Origin: Blautia sp.
GTDB lineage: Bacteria > Bacillota > Clostridia > Lachnospirales > Lachnospiraceae
Assembly (NCBI GenBank): GCA_017475035.1
Contig: JAFVGK010000156.1
Coordinates: 1 to 64,000 of the forward strand
Length of the DNA stretch: 64,000 nucleotides
Direction of reading: 5' to 3'
Positions 4,093-42,751 of the stretch are shown piece by piece. The notes under the pieces are model-generated. The model had not been told where the DNA came from. It did no database searches and worked only from the letters and a program-made list of their open reading frames with translations. Position 1 is the stretch's first letter. Each line of letters opens with the position of its first letter. The position numbers and the translations under genes were made by a program.

Positions 4093-4207
4093 ATATAGAT
4101 TGTATACGTTTATGTCACTGAGTATAAATTGGTCAAGAACGTAAGATAAGATAAGATATTTTTCTTCAACACTACAGAGCTTCGGGTTACATATCAACTT
4201 TCATTAT

Positions 4208-4448: not shown

Positions 4449-4496
4449 ATGTCACATAAAACTCTATTCCACCATATCCTGACGTCAAAGACTTAC

Positions 4497-4720: not shown

Positions 4721-4770
4721 GAAAGGAGGAGCCGCTCATAATATTAGAGCGGCGTTGAGCGATTAGGATG
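4721..4770 (+). promoter_or_regulatory. ribosome binding site separated from the start codon by a hairpin
   Basis: A strong GAAAGGAGGA (4721-4730) lies about 40 nt before the ATG at 4768, which is too far for normal initiation. Between them GCCGCTC (4731-4737) pairs with GAGCGGC (4747-4753). If folded, the hairpin brings the Shine-Dalgarno to about 15 nt from the ATG. No in-frame start lies between, since TGA precedes. The only local alternative, TTAGG, abuts the ATG. This could be a translation switch. Confidence 0.5.
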
Positions 4771-7700: not shown

Positions 7701-10700
7701 AAAAGTCACCCGCGAAGCCTATTTTGATGTCACAGGTTCACCGCTTCTGGTTGAGGCACTCGGGTATGCCATTGTAGAGAGGGAATATGACGACAGACAG
7801 CTGATCACCCGTGAGGCTTACTTTAATACTGCCGGAGCCCCTCTCCTGGCTGCGACGAAAGGGTACGCCATTGTAGAACGGGAATATAACGAGAATCAGC
7901 TGATGAACCGCGAAGCCTACTTTGATGTAACAGGAGCCCCGCTTATGGTTGCGTCGAAAGGCTATGCCATTCTTGAAAGGGAATATACCGAAAACCAGCT
8001 GATAAAAAAGGAAGCCTACTTTGATGAAGAAGGCAATCCGGTCCGCATTTCGGCAGGCTATGCCATCGTGGAACGGGAATACAACGATAAAAAACTGATT
8101 GCAAAAGAGTATTATTTCGATGAAAAAGGCAGTCCGGTCCGCATTCCCGCAGGCTATGCTTCCGTTACCCGCGACTATAATGAAGCATCGAAGCTCATTC
8201 GCGAGGCGTATTTCGATGAAGCCGGGGATCCCGTCCTGCTTCCGGGAAAAGACTATGCCGCCCTGTCAAGGGAGTATGACGAAAACGGCTTTGTCTCCGG
8301 GGAATACTATTATGACGGGGAAGGAAACCGTGTTCTGACCAAAATGGGATATTCCGGAGTCCGGAAGGAAAATGAAGAGCATGGCTGGCCAGTCAAGGAA
8401 GCTTACTATGACGCGAAGGATCAGCTCATGATTGTCGATTCCAGGAAGTATGCCAGAGTAGAGAAAGAATACAACGAAGCCGGCAAGGTGACCAGGGAAG
8501 CCTATTTCGGGCTCTCCGGGGAGCCTGTGAAATCCTCTTCAAATTTTGCTTCCGTGGAGAGGGAGTATGACGAAGCGGGCCAGATGATCCATGAAGCCTA
8601 CTTTGACGAGGAAGGAGAGCCTTTGGCCCTTCCAGCCGGTTACGCGGCTCTGACCAGGGAGTATAACGAGGAAGGAAAAATATCCCGCGAGTCTTATTTC
8701 GACGGAGAAGGGAATCCCGCCTATACGACTGCCGGCTATACGTCCCTGACCAGGGAGTACAATGAGGCCGGACTGGTTTCCCGTGAGTACTACTTTGATG
8801 AGGAAGGGAATCCGATCCTGAATGCCACTGGCTATGCTTCCGTTTCCAGGAAGTACGATGACAAGGGAAGAGTCAGCTATGAGGGTTACTATGACAGCTT
8901 CGGAACGCCGCTCTACCTGCCTGGAAAAGGCTATTCCGCGGTTGCCAGAGAGTATGATGAAGACGGGAATGTCACGCTGGAGTCTTATTATGGAACAGGC
9001 GGAGAGCTGACGATGCTTCCTGCCGGATATGCCGCGATCGGAAAAGAGTATAATGAAAACGGCAAGGTGACGCAGGAGCGGTATTACAATGCAAATCTGG
9101 ATCCTGTCATGCTGTTCAATAAAGGCTATGCTTCTTTACAGAGGGTATATGATGAGCATGGATATCTGATCCGGGAATCCTATTACAACCGGAACGGTGA
9201 GCTGACCATCAATACAGGCCGCTATGCCTATCTGGAACGAAAGAATGACAAAGACGGCCGGGTTCTTCGGGAAACCTATTATGACCTGACCGGAACCATT
9301 ACGCTGAACGCAACCGGTTACGCCGGTCTCGTGCGCGAGTATTATGAAGACGGAAAGATGCGGAAGGAGGATTATCTGGATGAAGACGGGAACAAGATGA
9401 TTGTCCCGATCTTTGGCTATGCCTCCCTCACCCGCGAATATGACGGGGATTTTGTTGTCAAAGAAAACTATTTTGACATAGAGGGCAACGCCTGCATCAA
9501 CAGAAGAGGTTTTGCATCCCTTACGAGGGAGTATGACGACCATGGCTGGATGGTGAAGGAAGCGTATTTAGATCTTGCGGGAGAGCCCGTCATGAATGCC
9601 CAGGATTACGCAGCCTTTATCAATACCTTCGATGAGTACGGAAGGGTCCTGTACCAGACGTTCCTTGATACGGAAGGAAACGTTCATCTGGCTGCATCCG
9701 ATGATTATGGCTATGCCATCATGAAACGGGATTACAACGAAAACGGACAGATCAGTCTGGAAACCTATCTGGACGAGAAGGAGCAGCCGGTACTGCGTCC
9801 GGTTGGCTATGCAGCCGTAGCCCGCGGCTATGATTATAACGGGCGCATGACGGAGGAAACCTACCTGGATACAGAGGGGAATCCTATCCTGATTTCCTTA
9901 AAGAACTATGCTTCTCTGAAGAGGGTTTACGATCAGGCCGGACGTCTGATGGAGGAGAGCTATTTCGATGAAAAGGGAAATCCCATCTGTTCCGTATCCG
10001 GCTACGCGAAGATTGAGAGGCAATATGATGACAACGGCTGTGTCATAAGGGAAAGCTATTTTGATGAGACCGGGAAATACCTCGTGGTTCCGGAAAAAGG
10101 CTATGCGATTGTCCACAGGGAGTACGATGATGATGGGAAGGTCGCGTATGAATATTATGATGACGAAAAGGAAAACCGGATCCTCTCGACACCAGGGTAT
10201 TCAGGGATAGCCAGAGACTATGATGTCTACGGCCAGATCACCAGGGAAGTGTATTATGACACCGATGATACGGTAATGCTTCTTACCACGAAAAATTACG
10301 CGATCATTGAGAAGGAGTATAATAAAGAAGGAAAGATCACCAAAGAAGCCTATTTCGGAATTGACGGCGAGCCGGTACGCTCTGTCTCCGATTATGCCTC
10401 TATCGAGCGGGAGTACAATGATGAAGGCCTGGTATGCTATGAAGCTTATTTTGATGAGGATGGCGCTCCTCTTGCCAACGCTTCCGGCTATGCCGCCGTT
10501 TCAAAGGAGTATACGGAAGCGGGAAAGGTGGATCATGAGGTCTACTTTGGTGAGGACGGCAGGGCGGTCCTGACGGTAAACGGTTATGCTTCTCTCACAA
10601 GAGAATATAATGACATTAACCTGGCGACCGCGGAAGCCTACTTTGACGAGGCCGGTCATCCTGTTCTGTCAGCCAAGGGCTATGCATCCCTGACGAGGGA

Positions 10701-13176
10701 ATATAATGAGACAGGCCAGGTGACAGGCGAAGCTTATTTTGATACCAAAGGACAGCCGGTGCTTTCCACGGGCGGTTATGCTTCTGTGACCAGGGAATAT
10801 CATGAAGGCGGAGGGATTACCCATGAAGCCTACTTTGATGAGGCCGGCAAGCCGGTGATCATTCCAGCCGGCTATGCTTCCCTGGAAAGAGAGTATGATG
10901 AAAACAACTATATGGTGCGGGAAGCCTATTATGGGACGGAGGGAGAACCCATCTTCCTTGCTGCCAAGGGCTATGCTTCTCTTAGAAGAGCGTATGACGA
11001 GGAAGGCCATATGGTTCATGAGTCTTATTATGACCTGGAAGAGATGCCCTCTGAGGTTCCCGCGGGCTATTGCGCTTTGTATCGGGAGTACGACGGAGGC
11101 AGCCAGTTCAGCGCGGAAGGGTATGAGGATGCCCAGGGGTATCCGGTGCTGAATACTTCCGGCTATGCACGGATAGAACGAAAATACAACATATCCGGAA
11201 GAGTCACCTGGGAAGCTTACTACGGAACGGACGGTTCTCCGGTTCTGCTTCCCGGAAAAGGCTATTCCGCCCTGACCAGGCAGTATGATGAGAGAGATCT
11301 GCCGATCCATGAGGATTATTTTGACGTTGAGACCCCGGTCATGACAAAAATGGGTTATGCGGCGGTCGCGAGACGCTACGACGAATCGAAACGGATCTCC
11401 TGGGAAGGCTATTATGATACTGCCGGGAATCGGATCATGGTCGAAGGAAAAGGCTATTCCGCTCTGTCCAGGCTCTATGATGAAGGCGGCAGGGTGGCGA
11501 AGGAAAGCTATTATGATACCAAAGACAAGCCTGTGATCGCGACGGCAGGCTATGCCGTGGTGACGAAGCTTTACGATGAGAACGGCAAGGTTACCCTGGA
11601 GTCTTATTACGACACGGAGGGCAATCCCATGATAGCCGTTGGCAGAACCTATGCGGCGGTCGCCAGAACCTATGATGAGAACGGTTATGTTGCCACAGAA
11701 ACCTATCTGGGCATCGACGGTGTACCCGCTCCGAATGCCAATGGCTACGCAGGGATCAAATATGCGCGGGATGCGGAAGGCCATATCCTGGATACCTGGT
11801 ATACCAACGGGAAGGATCAGCCGGTAGCCGTCAGCGGCAAGGCGCATATTACGAAAACCTACGACGCCTACGGCCAGGTTACCCGGGAGATCGCCTATGA
11901 TGGGGATGGCCAGGTGGTTCCGGGAAGCGGCGGCTATGCGTATGTTGACAGACAGTATGACGAGAATGGAAAATCCATTCTGGAGACCTACAAAAACGCC
12001 AAGGGTGAGCCGATGACGATCAACGGTTATGCCCAGACGCGCAAAGCCTACAATGAAAAAGGCAATGTCATCTGGCAGGGCTATTATGACGCAGAAGGCG
12101 GGATTGCGGTACAGGCAAAGGGCTATGCCTTTGTCCGCAAGGAGTATAATGACAACGGAAATGTCGTGAAAACCGCGTACTATGATGCGGAAGGAGCGCC
12201 GGTTATCATCACGGACGGTTATCATGCGCTGGTAAACGCCTATGATCAGGACGGAAACAATATCCTGGAAGCCAGATATGATACGGCCGGCAGCGTGATG
12301 GTGCAGACCAGGGGTTATGCCTATATCCAAAAAGCCTACAGCCTGGATAAGAAGGTTGTGCGCACGGATTATCTGGATGCGCAGGGACTTCCGGTTATGA
12401 CGACGGATGGATACGCGTCCATTGTCTATGCCCAGGACGCGGACGGGAATAATATTCTGGAGAAATATTATGACACGTCCGGGAATCCGGTTTCGCTCAA
12501 GGCCGGATATGCCGCGATCCGTAAGACGTACAATGATAATAAAAAGGTGATTCTGACGGAATACTTTAACGCGGACGGCGGCCGTGTTGCTTCGACATCC
12601 GGGTATGCGGTGCTGGCAAACGGGTACGATATGTATGGCAATAAGGTTTATGACGCGTATTATTCGACGGCTCTGGAACGTGTGGCAGTGAAACAGGGAT
12701 ACTCCGTGATCCGCTACATCTACAACGACCAGAACAAGGTGCAGCGTACAACGTATTACAACAGTTCCGGTCAGATCATCGCCAGCACCGACGGGTACGC
12801 GATGTTCGTCAATGAGTATAATGATGACGGCAAGGTTGTCTACACCGCGTGGTATGACACCGGGGGCAGCCGGATCACAAAAAAGGATTATTCTTCCTTC
12901 CTGACGAAGGAGTATCTGCCTGACGGGACTGTCCGCACCAGGTATTACGACAGCAGCGGCAATCCGGTTTCGATTTCCTCCGGTTACGCTGTCCTGGAGG
13001 AAACCTTTAACGCTGCAAACCAGAAGACGGGCGAAGCCTATTTCAATTCGAGCCTTACACCGGTTAACAAAAGCAAACAAAGCTACAATCGCTATACGAT
13101 CACGTATGAAGCAAACGGTGACAAGACATACAATTATTATTCCGGGAACATCCTGGTAAAAACGGAGGTAAAATGA
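4768..13176 (+). CDS. giant secreted protein of about 85 tandem 32-residue repeats
   Basis: This 2802-residue protein has a signal peptide (hydrophobic residues about 8-20, cleavage near AYAG). From about residue 60 to the C-terminus it consists of about 85 imperfect repeats of 31-33 residues. Each opens with GYAxxxREY, continues with an N/D-E-x-G turn, then EAYFD or EAYYD, and closes with GxPV. The YD and G-x-P turns recall RHS/YD and WG-type beta repeats, but the 32-residue period and the absence of an RHS core or toxin end argue against a classical Rhs protein. It has no LPXTG motif, transmembrane tail, SLH or catalytic domain. Repeats 1-64 are uniform, and those after about 70 are more divergent. 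The stop overlaps the next gene by 4 bp, so the secreted peptidoglycan-binding protein there may anchor or assist it. Likely a fibrous surface or adhesin protein; this is inference. Confidence 0.8.
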   Translation: MKKQLFRPLLLAVCACICIQARSAPAYAGQTIVVEKNDADLPTLENIVNEENELILGDDGYAVIRKEYNAQNQIIKESYYDLEDAPVISPTKGYASIEKEYDDSGRVTYEAYYDADGSLLSLPEKNYAAVAREYDDSGRVIYEAWYGTDGKPLLLSGKDYAAVAREYDEAGKVSYEAYFDTEGKPLFLPGKGYAALSRKYDENDRVSYECYYDGERNRIIAMAGYSGIRREYEDHGWVTLEAYFDTEDQPMLLASKKYASVKKEYNEAGKVTKEFYFGVTGEPVKSSSNYASVEREYNEAGLAIQEAYFDEEGNPQYLSSGYCALSREYNEAGKTSREAYFDAEGQPVLLTDGYHAWTREYDEAGQIIREAYYGLDGEPILRNGNYASLTRDYNDEGKVSREAYYGLDEKPIMRTGDYASLTREYNEAGQIIQESYYGLDGEPILRSGAYASLTREYNEAGQVSKEAYYDQEGKPVINASGYAAIEKEYNKAGKVTREAYFDVTDSPLLVEALGYAIVEREYDDRQLITREAYFDTAGAPLLVESKGYAIVEREYNENQLVSREAYFDINGAPLLVASKGYASVERDYNENQLIKKEAYFDEEGSPVRIAAGYASVEREYNDNKLIIKEAYFDEEGNPVRIPAGYASVARDYNEASKLIREAYFDEAGDPVLLPGKDYAALSREYDDNGYITYECYDDGEGNPVLAQMGYSGIRKEYEDHGWVILEAYYDTEDQPMILASRKCASITREYNEAGKVTKESYFGITGEPVKSSSNYASVEREYNEAGLAIHEAYFDEEGNPQYMSSGYCALAREYNEAGKTSREAYFDAEGQPVLLTDGYHALTREYDEAGQIIEEEYYGPDGEPILRSGGYASITREYNVAGKVSREAYYGLNEEPILRTGDYASLTREYNEAGQIIQEAYYDLDGEPTLRSGAYASLTREYNEAGQVSKEAYYDEEGQPVITANGYAAIEKEYNKAGKVTREAYFDVTGSPLLVEALGYAIVEREYDDRQLITREAYFNTAGAPLLAATKGYAIVEREYNENQLMNREAYFDVTGAPLMVASKGYAILEREYTENQLIKKEAYFDEEGNPVRISAGYAIVEREYNDKKLIAKEYYFDEKGSPVRIPAGYASVTRDYNEASKLIREAYFDEAGDPVLLPGKDYAALSREYDENGFVSGEYYYDGEGNRVLTKMGYSGVRKENEEHGWPVKEAYYDAKDQLMIVDSRKYARVEKEYNEAGKVTREAYFGLSGEPVKSSSNFASVEREYDEAGQMIHEAYFDEEGEPLALPAGYAALTREYNEEGKISRESYFDGEGNPAYTTAGYTSLTREYNEAGLVSREYYFDEEGNPILNATGYASVSRKYDDKGRVSYEGYYDSFGTPLYLPGKGYSAVAREYDEDGNVTLESYYGTGGELTMLPAGYAAIGKEYNENGKVTQERYYNANLDPVMLFNKGYASLQRVYDEHGYLIRESYYNRNGELTINTGRYAYLERKNDKDGRVLRETYYDLTGTITLNATGYAGLVREYYEDGKMRKEDYLDEDGNKMIVPIFGYASLTREYDGDFVVKENYFDIEGNACINRRGFASLTREYDDHGWMVKEAYLDLAGEPVMNAQDYAAFINTFDEYGRVLYQTFLDTEGNVHLAASDDYGYAIMKRDYNENGQISLETYLDEKEQPVLRPVGYAAVARGYDYNGRMTEETYLDTEGNPILISLKNYASLKRVYDQAGRLMEESYFDEKGNPICSVSGYAKIERQYDDNGCVIRESYFDETGKYLVVPEKGYAIVHREYDDDGKVAYEYYDDEKENRILSTPGYSGIARDYDVYGQITREVYYDTDDTVMLLTTKNYAIIEKEYNKEGKITKEAYFGIDGEPVRSVSDYASIEREYNDEGLVCYEAYFDEDGAPLANASGYAAVSKEYTEAGKVDHEVYFGEDGRAVLTVNGYASLTREYNDINLATAEAYFDEAGHPVLSAKGYASLTREYNETGQVTGEAYFDTKGQPVLSTGGYASVTREYHEGGGITHEAYFDEAGKPVIIPAGYASLEREYDENNYMVREAYYGTEGEPIFLAAKGYASLRRAYDEEGHMVHESYYDLEEMPSEVPAGYCALYREYDGGSQFSAEGYEDAQGYPVLNTSGYARIERKYNISGRVTWEAYYGTDGSPVLLPGKGYSALTRQYDERDLPIHEDYFDVETPVMTKMGYAAVARRYDESKRISWEGYYDTAGNRIMVEGKGYSALSRLYDEGGRVAKESYYDTKDKPVIATAGYAVVTKLYDENGKVTLESYYDTEGNPMIAVGRTYAAVARTYDENGYVATETYLGIDGVPAPNANGYAGIKYARDAEGHILDTWYTNGKDQPVAVSGKAHITKTYDAYGQVTREIAYDGDGQVVPGSGGYAYVDRQYDENGKSILETYKNAKGEPMTINGYAQTRKAYNEKGNVIWQGYYDAEGGIAVQAKGYAFVRKEYNDNGNVVKTAYYDAEGAPVIITDGYHALVNAYDQDGNNILEARYDTAGSVMVQTRGYAYIQKAYSLDKKVVRTDYLDAQGLPVMTTDGYASIVYAQDADGNNILEKYYDTSGNPVSLKAGYAAIRKTYNDNKKVILTEYFNADGGRVASTSGYAVLANGYDMYGNKVYDAYYSTALERVAVKQGYSVIRYIYNDQNKVQRTTYYNSSGQIIASTDGYAMFVNEYNDDGKVVYTAWYDTGGSRITKKDYSSFLTKEYLPDGTVRTRYYDSSGNPVSISSGYAVLEETFNAANQKTGEAYFNSSLTPVNKSKQSYNRYTITYEANGDKTYNYYSGNILVKTEVK
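5437..8346 (+). repeat. two recent 1455-bp tandem copies inside the giant gene
   Basis: The repeat beginning GYSGIRREYEDHGW starts at 5437 and recurs at 6892 and 8347, exactly 1455 bp (485 codons, 15 repeat units) apart each time. Units 6-20 and 21-35 match one by one at high identity. The third cycle from 8347 keeps register for only about three units before diverging. This shows growth by duplication of 15-unit blocks, not of single units. Confidence 0.85.
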
Positions 13177-18071: not shown

Positions 18072-18197
18072 GTGTTCAAAGGATTGCTGGAGCTGCTCCA
18101 CTGTGAATCGATCCTTGGAAGCAGGCTTTTTGTCGATGCATCATAGTATGATTCGGCAGACAAAAGAGCATATAGAGCATATAATGTAGGAAGACTT

Positions 18198-18279
18198 ATT
18201 TTGTAACTTCGGCAGTTCAACCGTCGAAGCTGCAAAATCGTCATCCGAAGACATCGAGTCAACGCATAATACTGCGTTT
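18198..18279 (+). repeat. dispersed repeat family B, copy 2
   Basis: An imperfect hairpin (ACTTCGGCAGTT / AACCGTCGAAGCT) is followed by GCAAAATCGTCATCCGAAGA and the AGTCAACGCATAATACTGCG tail. It lies just before the ribosome binding site of UDP-glucose dehydrogenase, so its hairpin would be in that gene's leader. Confidence 0.8.
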
Positions 18280-18300
18280 AATAGAGGGGGAGTAATTGAT

Positions 18301-20231: not shown

Positions 20232-20468
20232 ATGGCAGATAGAAAAGTAATTGATGAAGAGAATCTGGAACATGTAGTCGGGGGTTTTTTTAATTTTAAT
20301 GGAACAAATAACACAATGACATATTATCATCCAGACGGTACCGTTACCGTTCATAAGGTTTTAGATTTTAAACTTGCCTGGAAGATGAGCAATGATCTTC
20401 ATGGTCAGAATGTTCCAGAGGATAATATTCTTTCACAAATGGTAAGCGCTGGGTATATTATTGACTGA
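20232..20468 (+). CDS. small peptide with double-glycine-type leader (candidate secreted peptide)
   Basis: This 78-residue peptide is preceded by a good ribosome binding site (CGGAGG at 20218-20223). The N-terminus reads EENLEHVVGG at residues 9-18, the pattern of double-glycine leaders cut by C39 peptidase transporters, as in bacteriocins and other exported peptides. The putative 60-residue core is neutral and has no cysteine, with NFNGTNNTMTYYHPDG and a C-terminal amphipathic stretch. A strong terminator follows at 20627. No LanM, radical SAM enzyme or C39 transporter lies in the window, but a Sec11-like peptidase gene and its dead copy are downstream. A bacteriocin-like or signalling role is a guess. 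Confidence 0.6.
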   Translation: MADRKVIDEENLEHVVGGFFNFNGTNNTMTYYHPDGTVTVHKVLDFKLAWKMSNDLHGQNVPEDNILSQMVSAGYIID

Positions 20469-20660: not shown

Positions 20661-21151
20661 GCATTTATTCTGATATATCACTTCATGCATATTATTCTTC
20701 TGAAGGACATAAAGAGTATCTGAATTATTTCGTACTGAGCGGTGAGAATGTACAGGTATGTGAAATAATGGATTCGCTAAGGTTATCTCGCAGCCCAGGC
20801 TTATGTGGTGTAAGAAACGGTAAAAATTCAGAATATATTGGCCTGTTCCAAATTCGCCTTGAATATCTTATCTTTATGATATAGAATTATTCTTAATCAG
20901 TGATAAAAGGTTACATTTGGATGATAGGCTAAAGCGGGCTGTTCTCGAGCAAGCTATGGCTCTCCCTCGGAAAGCGAGGAAGCTATTGTCATGATTCATG
21001 GCTAATTTTCAGGTTTTTACCTCGAGAATGACCAGGCCGTTGCAATCTGCCATAATGATCAGATAAACGATATGCGGAATGAGTTCGGCTTTCAGAAGCC
21101 GTTTCCAAAGATGTACATAGAAGAGTAAATCTGCATATTGGGAAATGAAAT
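20661..21151. other. non-coding stretch with a gene tail remnant
   Basis: The stretch ends with an orphan coding-like tail (FGFQKPFPKMYIEE, stop at 21126-21128). Its DNA, TTTCCAAAGATGTACAT followed by GAAGAGTAAAT, recurs in altered form at 23219-23246, just before the second AAA-ATPase gene. The sequence from ATCTGCATATTGGGAAATGA is shared with the leader of the intact peptidase at 24999. It is therefore part of the duplicated peptidase/AAA module. Confidence 0.5.
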
Positions 21152-21610
21152 AGGAGCACATTTGAAGAAATCCTTTCCAAGGAGGGAAGGATCATTTATA
21201 AAACCAAAGGTGTCAGCATGCTCCCGCTGCTGCACCAGAATCAGGATATCGTCGTGATAGAACCTCCTCAGGGCAGGCTGAATAATTATGATGTAGCTTT
21301 ATATAAACGCGGCGTTTCCTATGTGCTGCATCGTGTCAGTGAGGTAAAGGATCATTATTATCTGATCCGTGGGGATAATACCTTTGCCTTGGAATATGTT
21401 CCGGATAAAGCTGCGATCGGTGTCCTTAAAAGCTTTATTCGAAAAGGAAAAACCTGGAATACCGATGACCGCCGATACATACTCTATTCCCGGTTTTGGA
21501 ATGCGATTTATCCGATCCGGAAATTGTGGGTTCTGGGATGGAGACTCATATACCGGGCGGCAAAAAAGCTGGGATTGAGAAGACCGGACTGGATGAGACG
21601 GAGAAGTTAA
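21152..21610 (+). pseudogene. Sec11-like signal peptidase, start codon lost (copy 1)
   Basis: Over about 460 bp this is nearly identical to the intact gene at 24999-25460. The position equivalent to its ATG reads AGG (21152-21154), a single T-to-G change. The next in-frame ATG (21218) begins within the catalytic GVSMLPLL motif, so it would remove the residues before the serine. The rest of the frame, including VLHRV and IRGDNT, is undamaged, which suggests the loss is recent. It could still be translated at low level from 21218, but then probably without activity. Confidence 0.75.
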
Positions 21611-21821
21611 AAGCTTATGAGCTCTGAATCATATTCTATATCTTAGGATCTGTATAAAAATGAACTTTACATCTGGCGCGTCTAAATCCGCCCAGGCTGC
21701 CTCGCTGCGGCGACTGACAACAATGCGGCCTGGACGAATTTATCCAGCACTGTCTGTAGGGGTTATTTTTGCACAGCTCCTGAGGGGGGACATTGTGGAA
21801 ACAAGAAAGAGGGTTGAAATA

Positions 21822-23042
21822 ATGAACAGAAGAAAACTTCCGATCGGAATTCAGGGCTTTGAAAAACTGAGAACAGAAAATTTCCTCTATGTGGATAAAA
21901 CGGAATATATCTACCAGCTTGTGCATAACAATGTCCCTTATTTCCTCAGCAGACCGAGAAGATTTGGGAAGAGCCTTCTTCTGTCGACAATGAAAGTATA
22001 CTGGGAAGGCAAACGGGAATTATTTTCTGGTTTAGCTATCGAAAATCTGGAGAAAGGCAATGAAAATGCCTGGGAGAAATATCCGATCTTTTATTTTGAC
22101 TTTAACGGAGAGAATTATATAGAAACTTCAATCGAAGCGGTTCTGGATGGCATGCTTTCTGACTGGGAAGATGTCTATGGCGATCAATATAAAAACCGTA
22201 CACTGGGCGATCGTTTTCAGAAAATTATGGAGACGGCTGTACAAAAAACAGGAAGAAGATGTGTTGTTTTAATTGATGAATATGATAAGCCCTTATTAGA
22301 CACAATAGATAACCCGGAATTGCAGAATCACATCAGAGAAGTGTTCAAAGGCTTCTTCAGCACGTTAAAGAAAGCAGACGAGTCGATACAATTCATTTTT
22401 ATTACAGGCGTTTCCAAGTTCCATAAAATCAGCATATTCAGTGATCTGAATCAATTAAAAGATATTTCGCTTACAAAGCAATATGCATCCATATGTGGAA
22501 TAACAGAAGATGAAATGAGACAGTATTTTGATCAGGAAATCAAACAACTGGCGAAATCACAGGATTTATCTTATGAAGAATGTCTGACCGGGCTGAGACA
22601 GATGTATGATGGCTATCATTTTCATCCGGCCGGAGGGGGAGTATATAATCCGTATAGTCTGCTCAGTGCTTTTGCAGATGGAGAATTAGGAGCCTATTGG
22701 TTTGAAACCGGGACACCGACAATGCTGATAAAGAAATTCCGGGATAACCACTTCGATGTTCAGAAAATCATTGATCAGAAGATATATACGGGGGAGTCTG
22801 TTTTGAAAGACTATGCTGGTGAAAGTCTGGATCCGGTTCCTCTGCTATATCAGACAGGATATCTTACCATTCAGGATTATGACACAAAACGAAAAAGATA
22901 TTCGCTGGGTTTTCCAAATGAAGAAGTAAAGTACGGATTTCTTGAGAGCCTGATACCTTCTTATGTACCAAAAGCATCGGCCGGAAATGGAGCGGGGCGA
23001 AAACCTGATACAGGAGATCTCTTTAGGAAAAGCCTTCCCTAA
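21822..23042 (+). pseudogene. AAA-ATPase/PD-(D/E)XK family gene, 3' truncated (copy 1)
   Basis: The frame matches the intact gene at 29162 (KLPIGIQGF at the N-terminus, P-loop RPRRFGKSLL, Walker B VLIDEYDKPLLD). Homology stops abruptly at about 22991 (GGAAATGGA). Beyond that the DNA is unrelated, and a stop follows at 23042. The roughly 150 C-terminal residues that carry the nuclease-like domain are missing. The unrelated 22992-23205 encodes a coding-like tail in another frame (KLDFFRFRSEAAPEAIHM), perhaps from a different gene. The start is placed at ATG 21822 by comparison with 29162. An upstream GTG at 21795 has a GGGGGGAC context also seen before the 27320 gene. Confidence 0.7.
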
Positions 23043-23274
23043 GCTTCTGCGCCAGACGTATCTTCCGACTGAAAACACTGCAAAACAAAAAAGCCTTTAT
23101 CTTTTGAAGACTATGTCCGGTAAACTGGATTTTTTTCGTTTTAGAAGTGAAGCTGCGCCGGAAGCGATTCATATGGCGTGGGAGAGGGTCAGACCCATTA
23201 TATAAATTTTGCAAGTTGTTTCCAAAGATGGACATGGAAGAGTAAATAGCGTTGAATATAGAGAGTATTGTAAA

Positions 23275-24954
23275 ATGTCAATCAAGATAGGTGTAGGCGA
23301 AGAGATTTTTGACAGGCTCAGAGAAGAGGGCTGCTACTATGTTGATAAAACGGAATTACTGTATGAACTGGTGAATTCATCAGATCATGTGGTTACGCTC
23401 TTTACCCGTCCGAGACGATTCGGGAAGACGCTGATGATGAGCATGATAGAAAGCTTCTTTGATATAAACAGAGACAGCAGATCCATATTTGCCGGACTTT
23501 CTGTCATGAAGCATGAAGAGTTCTGCAATAAGTGGATGAATCGATATCCGGTTTTATCTGTAAGCCTGAAGGATGTGGAAGGACTTCATTTTGGCAGTGC
23601 ATATGAAATGCTTAAGGTGGTGTTGGCAGATCTTTGTAAAAAACATGTGAATCTGAGGGAAAGTCATAAAATTCTTGAAGAGGACAGGGATATTTTTAAC
23701 AGATTGGCAGCCAGAGAACCAAATGAAGGAGATATTAAAGATTCTCTGAAAACCATGATGCGGATGATGTACATGGTTTATAACAAGCCCGTAATCCTGC
23801 TGATCGATGAGTACGATGTTCCCCTGGCGAAGGCCAACGAGAAGAAAGCAGGTGGGGAATGGTATTATCCACAGATGCTTGAAATGATCCGCGGCATCAT
23901 GAGTACAGCTTTAAAGTACAATGATTACCTGAAGTTCGGAGTTGTTACGGGATGTCTTAAGATTGCGAAAGAAAGTATTTTTACCGGTGTGAATAATTTT
24001 ACTTCCTATTCTGTTCTGGATGACAGGTTCGGCGGGTATTTCGGATTTACGCAGGAGGAGCTGGACACTCTGCTGAAAGCCGCTTGCCTGGAAGACAAAC
24101 AAAAGATTTTTGAGGAATGGTATGATGGGTATGTATTCGGCTGTCATTCTATGTACTGTCCCTGGGATGTTATGAATTATGTTTCTGACCTTCTGTACCG
24201 AAAAACAGCAAAGCCGAAAAATTACTGGAAGAATACCAGTGGGAATGGAATCATCCGGGATTTTGTGGAACGAACGGATTTTCAGGTGAAGCGGAAATTT
24301 GAAACCTTGATGAACGGAGAGAGTATTATCCAGACGATCTCGGATGAATTGACATATGATTCTCTTCACGAGACCGAGGACAATCTGTGGAGTGTCCTGA
24401 TGATGACGGGATATCTGACAAAGGCTGACCCGAATGAAGAGGGAAACACAATTGCCCTTGCAATTCCGAACAGGGAAATCTCCGGCATTTTCCGGGATAC
24501 AGTCGTAAAATATTTTTCTGATCATGTGGACATGGCTGAACTGAAGGTCATGATGGAGGCTCTGTGGACCGGAGATGAGGCTGCCGCAAGTAAAGCAATT
24601 TTAAAGCTGCTTTGGCAGACCATCAGTTTCATGGATTACCATGAAGACTATTACCACGCATTTTTGGCCGGGATTTTTGTGGGCAGAGGCTATGAAGTTG
24701 AGAGCAATAAGGAACGCGGTCTTGGGAGACCGGATATCTTACTGATCGATGATGCACACCGTCGTGCTCTGGTTATCGAAGCAAAGAAATCTGACAGCAG
24801 GGATAAGATGGAGCATGACTGTCTTGAAGTATTGAATCAGATTGTGGATCAGGAATATGCAAAAGATCTGGATGCATATGATTTGACCTGTTACGGAGTC
24901 GCGTTTTATCAGAAAAGCGCATTGGTAAAAAAATATGATGCGGCAGGCATATGA
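23275..24954 (+). CDS. AAA-ATPase-like protein with C-terminal PD-(D/E)XK nuclease domain (copy 2)
   Basis: This 559-residue cytoplasmic protein belongs to the AAA-ATPase_like (PF09820) plus PDDEXK_9/DUF1703 family. The N-terminal GCYYVDKTELLYEL leads into the P-loop TRPRRFGKTLMMS, with Walker B VILLIDEYDVPLA in the middle. The C-terminal nuclease-like site reads GRPDILLIDD then VIEAKKSD. Family biochemistry is not established; expansion in gut anaerobes suggests defence, toxin or genome-maintenance roles. The start at 23275 is chosen because homology to paralogues begins there (MSIKIGVGEEIFDRL). It is a different subfamily from the neighbours at 25512 and 29162. The next gene, a signal peptidase, starts 44 bp downstream. 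Confidence 0.8.
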   Translation: MSIKIGVGEEIFDRLREEGCYYVDKTELLYELVNSSDHVVTLFTRPRRFGKTLMMSMIESFFDINRDSRSIFAGLSVMKHEEFCNKWMNRYPVLSVSLKDVEGLHFGSAYEMLKVVLADLCKKHVNLRESHKILEEDRDIFNRLAAREPNEGDIKDSLKTMMRMMYMVYNKPVILLIDEYDVPLAKANEKKAGGEWYYPQMLEMIRGIMSTALKYNDYLKFGVVTGCLKIAKESIFTGVNNFTSYSVLDDRFGGYFGFTQEELDTLLKAACLEDKQKIFEEWYDGYVFGCHSMYCPWDVMNYVSDLLYRKTAKPKNYWKNTSGNGIIRDFVERTDFQVKRKFETLMNGESIIQTISDELTYDSLHETEDNLWSVLMMTGYLTKADPNEEGNTIALAIPNREISGIFRDTVVKYFSDHVDMAELKVMMEALWTGDEAAASKAILKLLWQTISFMDYHEDYYHAFLAGIFVGRGYEVESNKERGLGRPDILLIDDAHRRALVIEAKKSDSRDKMEHDCLEVLNQIVDQEYAKDLDAYDLTCYGVAFYQKSALVKKYDAAGI

Positions 24955-24998
24955 GGGCTGGAAAAGCTTGAAAATATCTGCATATTGGGAAATGAAAT

Positions 24999-25460
24999 AT
25001 GAGCACATTTGAAGAAATCCTTTCCAGGGACGGAAGGATCGTTTATAAGACAAAAGGCGTCAGCATGCTCCCGCTGCTGCACCAGAATCAGGATATCGTC
25101 GTGATAGAACCTCCTCAGGGGAGACTGAATAAATATGATGTAGCTTTATATAAACGCGGCGTTTCCTATGTGCTGCATCGTGTCATTCAGGTGAAGGATC
25201 ATTATTATCTGATCCGCGGGGATAATACCTATGCCTTGGAATATGTTCCGGATGAAGCTGTGATCGGCGTGCTTCGAAGCTTTATTCGAAATGGGAAAGC
25301 CTGGAATACTGATGACCGCTGTTACATACTCTATTCCCGGTTTTGGAATGCGATTTACCCGGTCCGTAAATTGTGGGTTCTGGGATGGAGACTCATATAT
25401 CGTGTGGCAAAAAAGCTGGGATTGAGAAGACCGGACTGGATGAGACGGAGAAAGCTTTGA
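24999..25460 (+). CDS. small Sec11/SipW-like signal peptidase (S24/S26 family), intact copy
   Basis: This 153-residue protein has the serine motif KGVSMLPLL (residues 19-27) and VLHRV near 60, then YLIRGDNTYALE. That His-containing pattern is the Ser/His arrangement of archaeal and eukaryotic Sec11 and SipW, not the Ser/Lys arrangement of LepB. A hydrophobic-basic stretch near the C-terminus (LWVLGWRLIYRVAKK) may sit at the membrane; there is no N-terminal TM. Such short S24/S26 proteins often lie near peptide maturation genes in Clostridia. A start-less copy is at 21152 and a shorter dead copy at 27161. Each is followed by an AAA-ATPase/nuclease gene. Confidence 0.75.
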   Translation: MSTFEEILSRDGRIVYKTKGVSMLPLLHQNQDIVVIEPPQGRLNKYDVALYKRGVSYVLHRVIQVKDHYYLIRGDNTYALEYVPDEAVIGVLRSFIRNGKAWNTDDRCYILYSRFWNAIYPVRKLWVLGWRLIYRVAKKLGLRRPDWMRRRKL

Positions 25461-25511
25461 GGTCTGACAGGCTGCAGGTTACGAGGAGGGCGTGAATGGG
25501 AGGAATGGAAC

Positions 25512-27131
25512 ATGGGAGTTTATCTGAATCCGGGAAATGATGGCTTTGCCAGAATCATCAGTGACAATTATGTTGACAAGACCGGATTGATCAGCCTGAT
25601 CAACAAGGCGATAGGCACCACAAAGAACCTGATCTGTATCAGCAGACCCCGCCGGTTCGGAAAGTCTTATGCCGCGCAGATGCTTTGTGCGTATTACGAT
25701 AAGTCCTGTGACTCCCATGACTTGTTTGGGCAGTTTAACATAAGCAGGGATGCCGGATATGAAACACATTTAAACAGGTATCATGTCATTGATCTTGATC
25801 TGTCGGGCTTTGCTGCCGGTGCCAGAAAGAATGCCATTCCCCTGCAGAATATTCCGATGCTCATCGATGCCGCGATCATGGAAGAGGTCAAAAGCTATTA
25901 TCCGGAGCTGTCATCACAGAAGGAACTTAACGATTGTCTCCTGGAGCTGGTGCGGATTACAGGGACAAAGATCGTTTTTGTGATTGATGAGTGGGATGCC
26001 GTGATTCGGGAAGCGAAGGATGACGAGGAGGCACAGGCGCGTTATCTGTATCTGCTCCGGGGATGGTTTAAAAATAATAACTTCACGCCGAAGGCAGTAG
26101 CCGCTGCATATCTGACGGGCATCCTTCCTATCAAAAAGGACAGATCACAGTCGGCGATTTCTGATTTTCAGGAATACTCCATGTTGGATCCGCTGGATTT
26201 TGCGGAATACGTAGGCTTTACGGAAGAGGAAGTAAAGAAGGTCTGTGAAACATCAGGCCGCGATTTTGCATACATGAAAATGTGGTATGACGGATATACT
26301 GTGGGAGACTGTCGCTCGATCTATAATCCTTATTCCGTGATGCAGGCCATCGAAAACGGAAAGTTTAAGTCTTATTGGAAAAAGACATCCGCTGCGGAAG
26401 CACTGATGACCTATATTGACATGGATCAGGACGGACTTCAGGAGGACATTGCAAGGTTAATCGCCGGAGAGAGTATTGAAGTGGATCCGGATTCATTCAA
26501 TAATGATGTGGAGACTTTTACCTGTAAGGACGATGTATTGACGTTGCTGATTCATCTTGGATATCTGACTTATGAGGAAATAAAGGATTCTTATGGCGAG
26601 GATGAGGTGTTTACCGGGCTGGCCAGGATACCGAACGAGGAGATCAGGACCGGGTTCGAAAAACTCCTGCGGAAGGCAAGGCATAAAGATCTGATAAACC
26701 TGGTGCGCAGTTCAGACAGGCTGCTCGAAGATACACTTTCCGGAAATGAAGAAGCGGTAGCAGCGGCTATCCGGAAAGTGCATGATTCAGAATATGCGCC
26801 GACCTTTTACAATAATGAACAGAGCCTGCGCTATGTAGTAAAGATGGCTTACATTTCCTGTGTGGATCAGTATGCAAAAGTGGAGGAAGTGCCTTCCGGT
26901 CATGGTGTGGCGGATGTTATATTCCTGCCAAAGAGAAATTCACCGCTTCCGGCTATGGTCATAGAACTGAAGTGGGACAGGAGCGCGGAAGGAGCGATCC
27001 GACAGATTAAGGAAAAAGGTTACGGAAAGCTTCTGGAACAATATGGCGGGGAAGTGATTCTGGCAGGCATCAGTTATGATTCCAGATCAAAAGAGCATAC
27101 CTGTGTGATTGAATTCATGAACAAAGGATGA
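25512..27131 (+). CDS. AAA-ATPase-like protein with C-terminal PD-(D/E)XK nuclease domain (copy 3)
   Basis: This 539-residue protein starts MGVYLNPGNDGF, with GGGAGG upstream of the ATG. The P-loop SRPRRFGKSYAAQ lies near residue 50, Walker B is VFVIDEWDAVIRE, and the C-terminal nuclease-like pair is VADVIFLP and MVIELKWD, with a following conserved Gln/Lys helix (AIRQIKEKGYG). It belongs to the same subfamily as the gene at 27320 (MGxYLNPG start, DEWDA Walker B). It follows the intact peptidase gene by 51 bp, so the two probably share a transcript. No membrane segment or signal peptide is visible. The function is unknown. Confidence 0.8.
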   Translation: MGVYLNPGNDGFARIISDNYVDKTGLISLINKAIGTTKNLICISRPRRFGKSYAAQMLCAYYDKSCDSHDLFGQFNISRDAGYETHLNRYHVIDLDLSGFAAGARKNAIPLQNIPMLIDAAIMEEVKSYYPELSSQKELNDCLLELVRITGTKIVFVIDEWDAVIREAKDDEEAQARYLYLLRGWFKNNNFTPKAVAAAYLTGILPIKKDRSQSAISDFQEYSMLDPLDFAEYVGFTEEEVKKVCETSGRDFAYMKMWYDGYTVGDCRSIYNPYSVMQAIENGKFKSYWKKTSAAEALMTYIDMDQDGLQEDIARLIAGESIEVDPDSFNNDVETFTCKDDVLTLLIHLGYLTYEEIKDSYGEDEVFTGLARIPNEEIRTGFEKLLRKARHKDLINLVRSSDRLLEDTLSGNEEAVAAAIRKVHDSEYAPTFYNNEQSLRYVVKMAYISCVDQYAKVEEVPSGHGVADVIFLPKRNSPLPAMVIELKWDRSAEGAIRQIKEKGYGKLLEQYGGEVILAGISYDSRSKEHTCVIEFMNKG

Positions 27132-27160
27132 ATGCGATGTAGAACTTGCCGGGAAATATC

Positions 27161-27305
27161 TGGAATGAGATCTATCCGGTCTGCAGACTGTGGGTTCTGG
27201 GATAGAGATTCATATACCGTGTGGCAAATAACTGAGGTATGAAGATCGGACTGGATGAGATGGAAAAGGCCAGACGCTTATGATATCTGAATCATATTCT
27301 ATTTC
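27161..27305 (+). pseudogene. 3' remnant of a third Sec11-like peptidase copy
   Basis: This stretch reads W-N-E-I-Y-P-V, then LWVLG, then a stop, then RFIYRVAN, another stop and a GLDEM-like end. It matches the last 45 codons of the peptidase at 24999 and its downstream TCTGAATCATATTCTAT flank, also found after copy 1. Point stops and missing 5' sequence show it is dead. It fills the gap between AAA copies 3 and 4 at the place a peptidase gene occupies elsewhere in the array. Confidence 0.7.
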
Positions 27306-27319
27306 TATGGGGGGACATT

Positions 27320-29014
27320 GTGGGAACATATTTAAATCCGGGCAAAACCGCTTTCGAGGAAGTGATTCATTCAGAGATATATGTGGATAAAACAGAAATG
27401 ATTCAGTTTATAAATTCTGTCGTGAAAACGGAGCAGAAATATATCTGTGTATCCCGGCCTCGGCGATTTGGGAAAACCGTAGCCGCAAAAATGCTTTGCG
27501 CATATTATGACAGGAAGGCTGACAGCCGTGAATTGTTTGAAACGCGGAAACTGGCAGGATGCCCGGAAGTGCATATTGGAGATAAGGTAATTTCCTGGGA
27601 TACGTATCTCGGTCAGTTTGATGTGATCCGTCTTGTTATGACAGATTTCCTGGAAGACAGCGCAAATGTTGAAGAGATGCTGTCCTACCTTACCGAAGAA
27701 GTAACAGAAGAACTCATGAATGATTATCCTGAAATCAATTTTGGGAAGCGGATTAACCTGCGTACCGTTATGAATAAAATATATGGAACAACGGGTCGTC
27801 AGTTTGTCGTTATCATCGATGAATGGGACGCCGTGTTCCGGGTATGGAAGAATGACAGCAAAGGACAGACAAAATATCTTGACTTTTTACGGGATTGGCT
27901 GAAAAACAAAGATTATTTGTCACTCACATATATGACAGGAATTCTTCCCATAAAAAAATATGGAGAACATTCTGCTCTGAATATGTTTGACGAGTACTCT
28001 ATGAATGCCCCCATGCAGTTGGCGGCATTTACCGGTTTTACAGAAAAAGAGGTAGAGGAGTTATGCCATGTTTACGAAATGGATTTTGAATCCGTTTCAA
28101 ACTGGTATGACGGATACCGTTTGAGCGATATGATTCCGGTTGACATGCGTAGATTATTTCGCCAGGGAGACTATGAAGGACGTAAAATCTCAATTTATAA
28201 CCCACTGTCAGTTGTCAAAGCTATGCGCAGTGGATCTGTGGATAATTATTGGAATAAAACAGAAACCTACGAAGCATTAGCAGACTATATCCGTCTGGAT
28301 TATGACGGCTTGAAAGAAACCATTGCCTTATTGATGGACGGAGGACGCGTAAAGGTAAATTTAAAGGCTTATCAGAATGATATGATGACTTTTCACAGCA
28401 AGGATGACATCCTGGCCTTGCTGATTCATCTTGGATATCTTGGGTATGAAGGCAGACAAACGCAAAGAGGGATCGATTCCGAACACGGTGAAGTCTTTAT
28501 TCCTAATAAAGAGATTTTGGATGAATTCAAAACCTCCACAAATTCACAAGAGTGGGTTTCCGCTTTCCAGGCATTTGATCTGTCTATGGAACTTTTAAAA
28601 GCAACCTGGGCAATGAAGGAAGATAAAGTGGCTGAACTGGTTGAGAATGCTCATAACCAGGTAGAGAGCAAAACATATAATGATGAAAAAGCGTTAAGCT
28701 TTTGTGTCCAGCTGGCATATTATGCGGCTCAAAAGTATTATACAACCATTCTTGAATTGGCTACGGGAAAAGGATACGCTGATATTGCGTATCTGCCATC
28801 ACCGAAGTATCCGAATTTTCCGGCTTTGCTGTTAGAGCTTAAATATGATAAGGATGAAACCGAAGGGCTGGAGCAAATTTACCGCCAGAAGTACATGGAT
28901 CGGCTTAAGCATTATAAAGGAAACTTACTTCTTATTGCAATTACGTATAGTAAAGATAGAAAGAATGATAGTCCGGAATTCAAGCATCATAGGTGCAGAA
29001 TCGTTAAGGCATGA
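27320..29014 (+). CDS. AAA-ATPase-like protein with C-terminal PD-(D/E)XK nuclease domain (copy 4)
   Basis: This 564-residue protein begins with GTG at 27320 after a strong GGGGGG site. It reads MGTYLNPGKTAF, then P-loop SRPRRFGKTVAAK, Walker B VVIIDEWDAVFR, and C-terminal YADIAYLP and LLLELKYDKD. It is the closest relative of the 25512 gene but about 25 residues longer, with extra residues in the region after the P-loop (RKLAGCPEVHIGDK) and before the nuclease domain. A 5' remnant of another member of this subfamily lies right behind it (29080). The protein appears intact. Confidence 0.8.
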   Translation: MGTYLNPGKTAFEEVIHSEIYVDKTEMIQFINSVVKTEQKYICVSRPRRFGKTVAAKMLCAYYDRKADSRELFETRKLAGCPEVHIGDKVISWDTYLGQFDVIRLVMTDFLEDSANVEEMLSYLTEEVTEELMNDYPEINFGKRINLRTVMNKIYGTTGRQFVVIIDEWDAVFRVWKNDSKGQTKYLDFLRDWLKNKDYLSLTYMTGILPIKKYGEHSALNMFDEYSMNAPMQLAAFTGFTEKEVEELCHVYEMDFESVSNWYDGYRLSDMIPVDMRRLFRQGDYEGRKISIYNPLSVVKAMRSGSVDNYWNKTETYEALADYIRLDYDGLKETIALLMDGGRVKVNLKAYQNDMMTFHSKDDILALLIHLGYLGYEGRQTQRGIDSEHGEVFIPNKEILDEFKTSTNSQEWVSAFQAFDLSMELLKATWAMKEDKVAELVENAHNQVESKTYNDEKALSFCVQLAYYAAQKYYTTILELATGKGYADIAYLPSPKYPNFPALLLELKYDKDETEGLEQIYRQKYMDRLKHYKGNLLLIAITYSKDRKNDSPEFKHHRCRIVKA

Positions 29015-29079
29015 TAGTTCAGCGCCTGACGGGAAGCAATAATGAGAAGAATTTTGCGGTACAGATGGAGGGCTGGAAT

Positions 29080-29133
29080 ATGGGAACTTATCTGAATTCA
29101 TAGAATCAGACTTTTGCCGATGAAATTATTTGA
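29080..29133 (+). pseudogene. 5' remnant of a sixth AAA-ATPase gene
   Basis: An ATG at 29080 opens MGTYLNS followed by a stop, then NQTFADEII and another stop. It aligns with the first 18 residues of the genes at 27320 and 25512 (MGTYLNPGKTAFEEVI). Nothing else of the gene remains before the next family member at 29162. Confidence 0.65.
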
Positions 29134-29161
29134 TGACTTTTCTTACCGGAGGCAGGGATAG

Positions 29162-30787
29162 ATGTTGAACGATGTTAACTCTGACAGACAGGTTGAGCTA
29201 AGAAAACTGCCCTTAGGGATTCAGGGATTTGAGGGGCTTCGAAGGGATGGATATATTTATGTGGATAAAACATCATATATATACCGATTGATACATGAAG
29301 GAAAGCCTTATTTCCTCAGCCGCCCCAGAAGATTCGGAAAAAGTCTCCTGCTTTCTGCTATGAAAACATACTGGGAAGGGAAGCGGGAATTGTTTGCGGA
29401 TCTGGCGATAGAAAAACTGGAGGAAAATAATCCTGAAGCATGGAAACCGCATCCTGTGTTTTATTTCGACTTTAACGGCGTAAACTATATGGAAACAGGG
29501 GCGTTGGAAGAATCGCTGAACATTCATTTAAAAAGATGGGAAAAGCAGTATTCATGCGGCACGCAAGGCACGTTAAGCGAACGCTTTCAGAATTTGCTGA
29601 TAACTGCAAAAGAACAAACCGGCTTACGGTGTGTGGTTTTGGTGGATGAGTATGATAAGCCGCTATTGGACGTCATTGATAGTAAAGAACTGCAGGATCA
29701 CAATAAGGGAGTAATCAAGGGCTTTTTCAGCACATTGAAAAGCTTTGACGAATATATCGGGTTTGTTTTCATCACAGGTGTTACAAAGTTTCATAAAGTA
29801 AGTATTTTCAGTGATCTGAACCAATTAAGGGACATCTCAATGACAGAGGACTATGCCGGCATTTGCGGGATTACAGAAGAGGAGATCAGGAGTTATTTCA
29901 TGAACGAGGTTATTCTTCTTGCCGGCAAACAGAAAATGACAGTAGAAGAATGTCTGACTGCCCTGAAAAACCAGTATGATGGCTATCACTTTCATCCCGA
30001 TGGAGCTGCCGTTTATAACCCGTACAGCTTATTTGGAGCTTTTCTTGATAAAGAATTCGGCTCTTATTGGTTCGAAACCGGAACACCGACTTTTTTAATC
30101 CATCAATTGAGAGATAATCATTTTGATGTTCGTAAATTTTCTGATCATACGATATATGCTGCGGAAGCTATGCTAAAGGATTATACAGGTGATTCGCCCG
30201 ACCCGGTACCGCTTCTGTATCAGACGGGATATCTTACGATCTATGATTATGACAGAAAAAGAAAACGCTATACCCTTTGTTTTCCAAATGACGAAGTGAA
30301 GTACGGATTTCTTGAAAGCCTGATGCCTGCCTATGTGCCGAATGCTACGGTTGGAAATGGACTGGATATATTCAGTTTAGATGAATACATTGAAACAGGA
30401 AATCTGAATAAAGTAAGAGATGTTCTGACTGCATTATTTGCAGGAATTACGTATACCAGAGAAGCGGATCCTTTCGAGCACTATTTTCAATCCGTTATCT
30501 ATGTTGTCTTTACTTTGTTGGGGAAGTTCGTCTTGTGTGAAATGCATACTTATTCGGGGAGGATCGACTGCAGGATACAGACAAAAGATTATATATACCT
30601 GTTTGAATTTAAACGTGACGAATCGGCAAAAGCGGCGCTGGCCCAGATTGACAGTAAAGACTATACCCTTCCTTTTATAGCGGATTCCAGGAGGTTATTT
30701 AAGATAGGGGTTTCCTTTGATACAGTGACAAGAAAGCTTACAGACTGGGAAGCCGCAGAAGTTGATGGCAATGGCATATCGGGATGA
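29162..30787 (+). CDS. AAA-ATPase-like protein with C-terminal PD-(D/E)XK nuclease domain (copy 5)
   Basis: This 541-residue protein starts MLNDVNSDRQVELRKLP after GGAGG. The sequence KLPLGIQGFEGLRRDGYI leads to P-loop SRPRRFGKSLLLS (about residue 60), Walker B VVLVDEYDKPLLD, sensor-like VFITGVTKFHKVSIFSDLN, and C-terminal RIDCRIQT and LFEFKRDES with AALAQIDSK. It is the intact counterpart of the truncated gene at 21822. The KVSIFSDLNQL element is shared by copies 1 and 5 but not 2-4, which defines a separate subfamily. It closes the array; the next gene has its own promoter. Confidence 0.82.
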   Translation: MLNDVNSDRQVELRKLPLGIQGFEGLRRDGYIYVDKTSYIYRLIHEGKPYFLSRPRRFGKSLLLSAMKTYWEGKRELFADLAIEKLEENNPEAWKPHPVFYFDFNGVNYMETGALEESLNIHLKRWEKQYSCGTQGTLSERFQNLLITAKEQTGLRCVVLVDEYDKPLLDVIDSKELQDHNKGVIKGFFSTLKSFDEYIGFVFITGVTKFHKVSIFSDLNQLRDISMTEDYAGICGITEEEIRSYFMNEVILLAGKQKMTVEECLTALKNQYDGYHFHPDGAAVYNPYSLFGAFLDKEFGSYWFETGTPTFLIHQLRDNHFDVRKFSDHTIYAAEAMLKDYTGDSPDPVPLLYQTGYLTIYDYDRKRKRYTLCFPNDEVKYGFLESLMPAYVPNATVGNGLDIFSLDEYIETGNLNKVRDVLTALFAGITYTREADPFEHYFQSVIYVVFTLLGKFVLCEMHTYSGRIDCRIQTKDYIYLFEFKRDESAKAALAQIDSKDYTLPFIADSRRLFKIGVSFDTVTRKLTDWEAAEVDGNGISG

Positions 30788-42555: not shown

Positions 42556-42570
42556 GGTAACTTATTGGCC

Positions 42571-42727
42571 GGCTCGGCTCATACCCTGAGAGGCGGACGG
42601 ATCGATGTCACCATGAGCGACGTATCAGAAAAATAATTGACGGAAGATGGTTCGCCTGTTATTTCTCGGCAGAGTAAATGTGACATTGATCCGGGAGCCA
42701 TCGTAAGCCCTGAAGCCGAGCGTCAAG
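42571..42727 (+). repeat. palindromic repeat family A, short form (copy A2)
   Basis: This copy has the same outer arms as A1 (GGCTCGGCTCATA to GAAGCCGAGCGTCAAG, GGATCGATGTCAC against GTGACATTGATCC) but lacks the about 85-bp inner hairpin. It lies 15 bp after the ABC permease stop and ends 25 bp before the pectinase start. Confidence 0.85.
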
Positions 42728-42751
42728 TATTTAACACAGAAGGTGAAAGAC

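Follow-up and report, generated by a model that had tools for sequence, protein, structure and literature searches.

The locus described here occupies positions 21152-30787 of a 64-kb stretch of Blautia sp. DNA (the window, by which we mean the whole stretch analysed), taken from an assembly of 5.08 Mb in 200 contigs with a contamination estimate of 5.03%. It is an array of five genes for AAA-type ATPases of family PF09820 (four with the PD-(D/E)XK domain PDDEXK_9, and one truncated), together with the stub of a sixth and three copies of a Sec11-like peptidase. An earlier account made from the letters alone (the sequence-only reading) had reported this gene content at these coordinates, and both proved correct on re-examination by domain and sequence search. 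The same work added three parts: an HprK-like remnant between the ATPase genes A1 and A2, a precursor-like open reading frame (ORF) at 20232, and an interspersed element of about 140 bp between the peptidase copy P1 and A1.

Data are window positions, strand and description of each feature. The ATPase genes A1 to A5 were identified by domain search; L numbers denote loci used for comparison.

20232-20468, +: precursor-like ORF of 78 amino acids with leader end VVGG; 49% identity over 77 amino acids (E 2.6e-22) to L054:2844-3083
21096-21130, +: left flank of P1 (35 bp), apparent empty-site counterpart of 23213-23247, with which 31 of 35 bases match
21152-21610, +: P1, peptidase, frame open, no start codon in place; 89% amino acid identity to P2
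21644-21783, no strand assigned: interspersed repeat element; 73.6% identity over 144 alignment columns to L076:200-331, on a different contig
21822-23042, +: A1, PF09820 ATPase gene without PDDEXK_9, 3' end lost
23011-23205, +: C-terminal remnant of an HprK-related kinase; aligned at 23044-23187, with the limits beyond that drawn by eye from the open frame
23213-23247, +: left flank of the A2 unit (35 bp), matching 21096-21130
23248-24975, +: A2 unit of about 1.73 kb, a single PF09820-PDDEXK_9 gene (probable ATG at 23277, stop at 24954) between the kinase remnant and P2
24999-25460, +: P2, intact peptidase of Sec11-like S26 type; TIGR02228 E 5.1e-5, under its cut-off
25512-27131, +: A3, PF09820-PDDEXK_9 gene with start MGVYLNPG
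27149-27306, +: P3, peptidase remnant (3' end and 3' flank); the matched part, 27149-27244, has two stops
27320-29014, +: A4, PF09820-PDDEXK_9 gene with a GTG start
29080-29103, +: stub, 5' end of an A3/A4-type gene (MGTYLNS, then a stop); 83.9% match to the A3 start region over 31 bp
29162-30787, +: A5, PF09820-PDDEXK_9 gene of the subfamily shared with A1

The A1 frame ends by running through the kinase remnant in a different frame. The repeat element at 21644-21783 is not present in the corresponding flank of P3. Downstream of the array stands an sstT-sdaA pair that is conserved in relatives, where the upstream side differs. An empty site for the array as a whole was not found, and the flanks of the other ATPase copies of this genome had no match in the stretches examined. 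Directly before P1, 21024-21128 holds the open end of a protein with no clear relative among the loci examined.

Ancestry and spread of the ATPase genes

All five ATPases match PF09820 above its cut-off of 26.1 bits (92.6-229.8 bits; E 3.8e-26 to 3.5e-68), and A2-A5 also match PF08011, the PDDEXK_9 family (29.8-62.4 bits against a cut-off of 25.5), which is missing from A1. The Walker A motif RPRRFGK[ST] and the Walker B motif DE[YW]D form invariant columns in an alignment of six sequences and are present in all five window genes; the nuclease D and ExK residues (PD/ExK-type), read by eye from the alignment, occur in A2-A5. Conservation of these motifs suggests that the family has both ATPase and nuclease activity. 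A sequence search for solved relatives returned none that was convincing.

Neighbouring ATPases of the array share 36.5% or less of their residues (A3 and A4 share 36.5%). A tree was built from 36 proteins, comprising the copies of this genome, those of four stretches of genome G335 and one relative from a viral contig; its long branches meet deep. The five window ATPases need five changes on this tree, that is, there is no grouping by location. A2 pairs with a copy on contig C132 (68%), the nearest to A3 by path is a copy on C54 (66%), A4 falls in a starred clade of five with copies from C126, C4, C132 and G335, and the closest to A5 is a G335 copy (70%), followed by A1. The sequence-only reading had seen more than one ATPase subfamily here, which told against a simple recent tandem duplication, in a locus subject to decay and rapid turnover, and on these points it holds. 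As for turnover, across 41 genomes sampled from the genus the number of PF09820 places per genome runs from 0 (8 of 41) to 40 (2 of 41), and some relatives carry 40 copies or more.

Clustering of the ATPase genes is beyond chance. Nine neighbouring starts in the genome lie within 3 kb of each other, compared to 0.45 expected from random placement (contig ends ignored) and a maximum of 4 in 10,000 draws. Adjacent pairs also occur in other sampled genomes (31 pairs in the stretches examined). A3-type and A4-type genes stand side by side, in varying order, in the window, C126, C132 and G335_C40 (window 25512-29014; L087 1653-4937; L079 8595-10991; L158 2868-5355), and possibly form a lasting pair.

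Genomic home of the peptidase

P2 contains what we take to be the GVSM serine and LHRV histidine motifs of a Sec11-like S26 peptidase. The match to TIGR02228 (archaeal/Sec11-type signal peptidase I) scores 23.2 bits and does not reach the curated cut-off of 51.85; it begins at model position 37, and no N-terminal membrane helix is apparent by eye. The DNA of P1 and P2 aligns over 499 bp at 91.8% identity, and P3 is 80.4% and 81.3% identical to the 3' ends of P1 and P2, respectively. In P1 the first in-frame ATG falls downstream of the presumed nucleophile serine. Genome-wide, the peptidase matches at just three places, all within this locus; PF09820 matches at 28.

The sequence-only reading took the succession of peptidase and ATPase genes for a repeating module. 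This fails: the two genes lie apart as a rule, the very outcome that the sequence-only reading had named as its refutation. The survey encompassed 51 related peptidase loci (15 named loci, the 20 highest-scoring outside this genome, and 16 of 17 outside this genome from a further search, G321 being omitted) in stretches of 3.7-20.4 kb, some with short flanks. None of the 51 contains an intact PF09820 gene, and a single one (L114) has a PF09820 fragment, 6.6 kb from the peptidase. This genome's other 23 PF09820 places, covered by 16 stretches, gave no peptidase match with a broader profile. Elsewhere in the family the peptidase is matched in 56 further genomes, 31 of which are without a PF09820 match at E 0.001. 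At least two pairings at a distance exist: genome G135 carries distant peptidase relatives on contigs (C88, C87) with PF09820 genes about 5.3 and about 11 kb off. On the basis of the neighbourhood survey (0 of 51 loci, 0 of 16 stretches) we reject peptidase-ATPase pairing. Co-duplication of such pairs is rejected also: P1 and P2 share 92% of their DNA, compared to 36.5% of residues for A3 and A4, a mismatch in divergence which argues that peptidase and ATPase were not duplicated together.

The surroundings of the related peptidases are of a different kind. In 43 of the 51 loci, PqqD-like, HprK-related, NTP_transf_5, radical-SAM or second NHLP-exporter genes, markers of clusters for ribosomally synthesized and post-translationally modified peptides (RiPPs), lie within 6 kb. 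The same specific markers matched none of 76 ATPase control loci, which are shorter (median 7.5 kb), the marker proteins having been drawn from 7 of the same 51 peptidase loci; generic ATP-binding cassette (ABC) markers did match controls (11 and 7 of the 76). The markers were identified as PqqD (PF05402, E 2.2e-14), NTP_transf_5 (PF14907, E 1.2e-40), radical SAM (PF04055, E 1.2e-15) and the NHLP exporter (TIGR03796, over its cut-off); the assignment to HprK is weak (TIGR04249 E 0.0005, TIGR04352 E 0.009, no Pfam match).

Probable remnants of such a cluster are found in the window. Locus L054 has the gene order precursor-like ORF, radical SAM, HprK-like kinase and peptidase, and the end of its kinase gene adjoins the start of its peptidase gene. 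The window ORF at 20232-20468, whose VVGG is presumably a double-glycine-type leader end, found no counterpart in 298 further genomes of the family (E 0.001) and matches nothing in Pfam. The kinase remnant is 48% identical over 48 amino acids (E 1.3e-10) to the C-terminus of L054 ORF 4220-5281 and 34% identical to ORFs of L103 (E 4.4e-4) and L098 (E 0.002). A search of the window gave no PqqD or radical SAM match, and its ABC matches, at 40.4-41.1 kb, are generic. The window peptidase is best read as the orphan of a RiPP-type cluster and not as a partner of the ATPases.

Filled and apparently empty sites

The surroundings of A2 occur in the window in both a filled and an apparently empty state. 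The next-best window match for the 35-bp left flank of A2, after that beside P1, has 22 of 35 bases, and the right flank (24976 onward) is about 92% identical to the sequence from 21129 onward. The two flanks are joined at P1 and split at P2 by 23248-24975, a unit in which 29 bases precede the probable ATG and 21 follow the stop, and whose junctions overlap by 2 bp (AT). P1 looks like a preserved empty site for A2, as would follow if the peptidase had been copied locally before A2 arrived. Insertion of A2 is likelier than its loss, because kinase and peptidase adjoin in L054.

On contig C143 of this genome (L085 7955-12787), two PF09820-family genes separate pilin-like genes. These pilin-like neighbours adjoin, with no ATPase between them, in all seven relatives with strong matches (L248-L254), the count being confined to these seven since the remaining relatives matched too weakly to judge. 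The gap between the aligned ends is 14 bp in five relatives, 61 in one and 348 in one. One of the seven, G328, has an ATPase-like match (E 2.3e-5) about 1.4 kb beyond the pilin-like pair.

Genome G318 has four near-identical, dispersed PF09820-PDDEXK_9 genes:

L151 5504-7279
L152 6001-7929
L153 6477-8186
L154 5679-7403

Five of the six pairs are 98.4-99.5% identical over about 1.7 kb, and the sixth is 96.8% identical over 1.9 kb including flank; a fifth copy (91%) lies at a contig end. The part common to all four starts some 20 bases ahead of the ATG and ends at the stop or a few bases past it.

We put a probability of roughly three in four on the following reading of the locus: PF09820-PDDEXK_9 genes came in one at a time and disrupted a RiPP-like cluster, of which the peptidase is the orphan. 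A cluster of precursor, modifying enzymes, HprK-like kinase and Sec11-like S26 peptidase would formerly have stood at the site, leaving the ORF, the kinase tail and the peptidase. Multicopy PF09820-PDDEXK_9 members of differing subfamilies would have lodged in it (A2, at the least, as a unit the size of a gene), splitting and truncating the cluster, and some of the lodged genes would have been truncated in turn. As to how they moved, the PD-(D/E)XK domain would cut DNA with the ATPase acting as its gate, and repair of the cut would copy the gene into the break or join ends by short homology, giving rise to gene-sized insertions, tandem arrays and remnants. A benefit to the host, for example through attack on incoming DNA, may also be involved. 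The stronger claim, that these genes are one-gene mobile elements in which an AAA-type ATPase and a PD-(D/E)XK domain within one protein drive their own copying without other transposition genes, we consider unlikely; if true, it would be how a single family comes to split operons and to number 40 copies or more in some genomes.

A number of observations weigh against arrival as single genes or against the peptidase as debris. The empty site at P1 could be the precise loss of an A2-like gene, and the AT overlap may be due to chance. Inverted or terminal repeats, such as would bound a transposon or insertion sequence, were not found at lengths of 30 bp and above in 19.5-31.5 kb (shorter ones were not sought there). 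The extra stretch on C143, about 4 kb, consists of two genes plus about 460 bp and is not gene-precise; in G318, three copies have a short upstream stretch in common and two a further 160 bp. Dispersal of near-identical copies, sought as a general rule in seven genomes with part of the copies of each examined, was clear in one only (G318) and as a rule is rejected: ATPase pairs of 85% identity or more were absent from the stretches of G130 (17), G051 (20), G311 (4), G335 (4) and G000 (16), and G029 (20) has three tandem pairs at that level and one partial dispersed match of 385 bp. A1 and A5 belong to a common subfamily and may therefore stem from a local duplication of greater age. Specific RiPP-type markers are missing from 8 of the 51 peptidase loci, among them L097, which has an NTP_transf_5 gene by Pfam, and L096, one of the closest peptidase relatives (60%), which stands alone without RiPP-type genes and so indicates that orphan peptidases exist. 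Finally, the 16 synonymous and 18 non-synonymous differences between P1 and P2 (ratio of non-synonymous to synonymous rates, dN/dS, 0.30; Fisher p 0.001) suggest that the peptidase was kept under selection after copying and is more than debris. The scarcity or distance of viral and plasmid relatives, set out below, counts on the same side.

Alternative explanations and related systems

The main rival holds that the ATPase-nucleases are host-beneficial anti-phage genes without mobility of their own, which ordinary recombination brings together at permissive sites, the RiPP cluster being simply one of these. The range of 0-40 copies in one genus and the arrays of unlike members fit this explanation, as does the tabulation of PF09820 for RADAR RdrA, PARIS1 and Old-tin in PMC10952713, and we regard it as a real possibility at clearly less than even odds. 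Set against it are the defence searches. PADLOC-DB 2.0.0 gave partial matches at best E 0.0016 for six array proteins. The neighbours of this genome's ATPases in the 16 stretches are mixed: 49 of 69 were scanned (short ORFs made up most of the remaining 20), three PIN and two TIR proteins were noted among the 25 of 76 Pfam families listed, and PADLOC found eight families with one member each. With no consistent PADLOC system in array proteins or neighbours, we reject a defence island. Nor would four near-identical, dispersed single genes, as in G318, be expected of ordinary cargo. Between defence cargo moved by ordinary recombination and nuclease-stimulated copying into breaks we favour the latter.

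The case for carriage by phage or plasmid was judged weak, with relatives in viral and plasmid sequences either scarce or remote. Among viral contigs, A3 has one relative (51%), and A5 and the peptidase have none. A3 matches 50 of 72,556 plasmid records, the best at 52% and the others below 28% among the 20 of 50 listed; A5 matches 34 of 50,697 phage records, of which the 20 listed are unannotated faecal contigs.

A functional conflict system, in which the peptidase frees or activates an ATPase-nuclease partner and the pairs duplicate together, could draw on the alternation of three peptidase copies with ATPases, the intact state of P2, the constraint between P1 and P2, and the G135 contigs. 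The neighbourhood survey and the unequal divergence of the two kinds of copies, both given above, make it very improbable. Slightly less probable still is that assembly or binning produced the array: there are 200 contigs and a contamination estimate of 5.03%, yet the array lies inside a 113-kb contig with the conserved sstT-sdaA pair downstream, and mis-joining of identical repeats is unlikely because the copies differ too much (P1 and P2 are 91.8% identical, and ATPase neighbours 36.5% or less).

The filled and empty pair in the window, the sharp-ended copies of G318 and the split operon of C143 together pose a testable question, namely whether the ATPase-nucleases are self-moving. The locus also advises caution: a neighbour of such genes, here the peptidase, may be target debris and not a partner.

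Elsewhere in the window, a palindromic repeat of some 160-260 bp, with up to 90% identity and nested inverted arms, is interspersed at 4192-4456, 42550-42731, 50089-50609 and 61738-61911, and also on contig C94. A second short interspersed family is present at 1446-1540, 18192-18280 and 48690-48879, and on several other contigs. Positions 4768-13176 encode a protein of 2802 amino acids made of EYNEAGKVTREAYFD-type repeats, with one uninformative Pfam match; a 2-kb stretch here is repeated at 82.5% DNA identity. At 10-855 there are small ORFs without a Pfam match that have EARGEARG-type tails, which we liken to Rpn/YhgA nucleases; a stretch here is duplicated at 82% (157-594 and 1031-1447).

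Rpn/YhgA-like PD-(D/E)XK nucleases, in which we assume the YhgA-like proteins to be linked to Rpn, resemble the array ATPases as multicopy genes called putative transposases and differ in being another family, one that is not known to have an ATPase module. The YhgA-like nucleases are treated in PMC1913061. With archaeal/Sec11 signal peptidase I the array peptidase shares the presumed GVSM and LHRV motifs and a weak TIGR02228 match; it differs in falling below the cut-off, in matching the model from position 37 onward and in showing no N-terminal membrane helix by eye. Like the lasso-peptide clusters of rumen bacteria, as presented in PMC7533575, and the NHLP export clusters (TIGR03796), the loci of the related peptidases combine PqqD, HprK-like, NTP_transf_5 and peptide-export ABC genes. 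The protease is Sec11-like S26 here and transglutaminase-like in the lasso clusters of that account, and, unlike full RiPP clusters, the window retains only the precursor-like ORF, the kinase tail and the peptidase.

For the ATPases, nothing nearer than DUF1703 (PF09820 plus PF08011) appeared in the literature among the matches listed (15 of 42 in one search); of 16 papers containing one of the family names, several apparently do so through Plasmodium gene names. This family was defined in PMC1913061, and in Cardinium cCpun its paralogs have expanded, with partial copies and recombination among them (PMC6387759). In their passages on these proteins, the two papers and PMC10952713 together cover expansion, paralog recombination, plasmids as a possible route and predicted folds; neither a tested function nor insertion into operons is among the topics. 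The array genes share with DUF1703 both domains, the Walker A and Walker B motifs named above, and tens of divergent paralogs per genome. Unlike in the passages of PMC6387759 and PMC1913061 on the family, members described here lie inside a RiPP-like cluster and a pilin-like operon, one of them with an apparent empty site.

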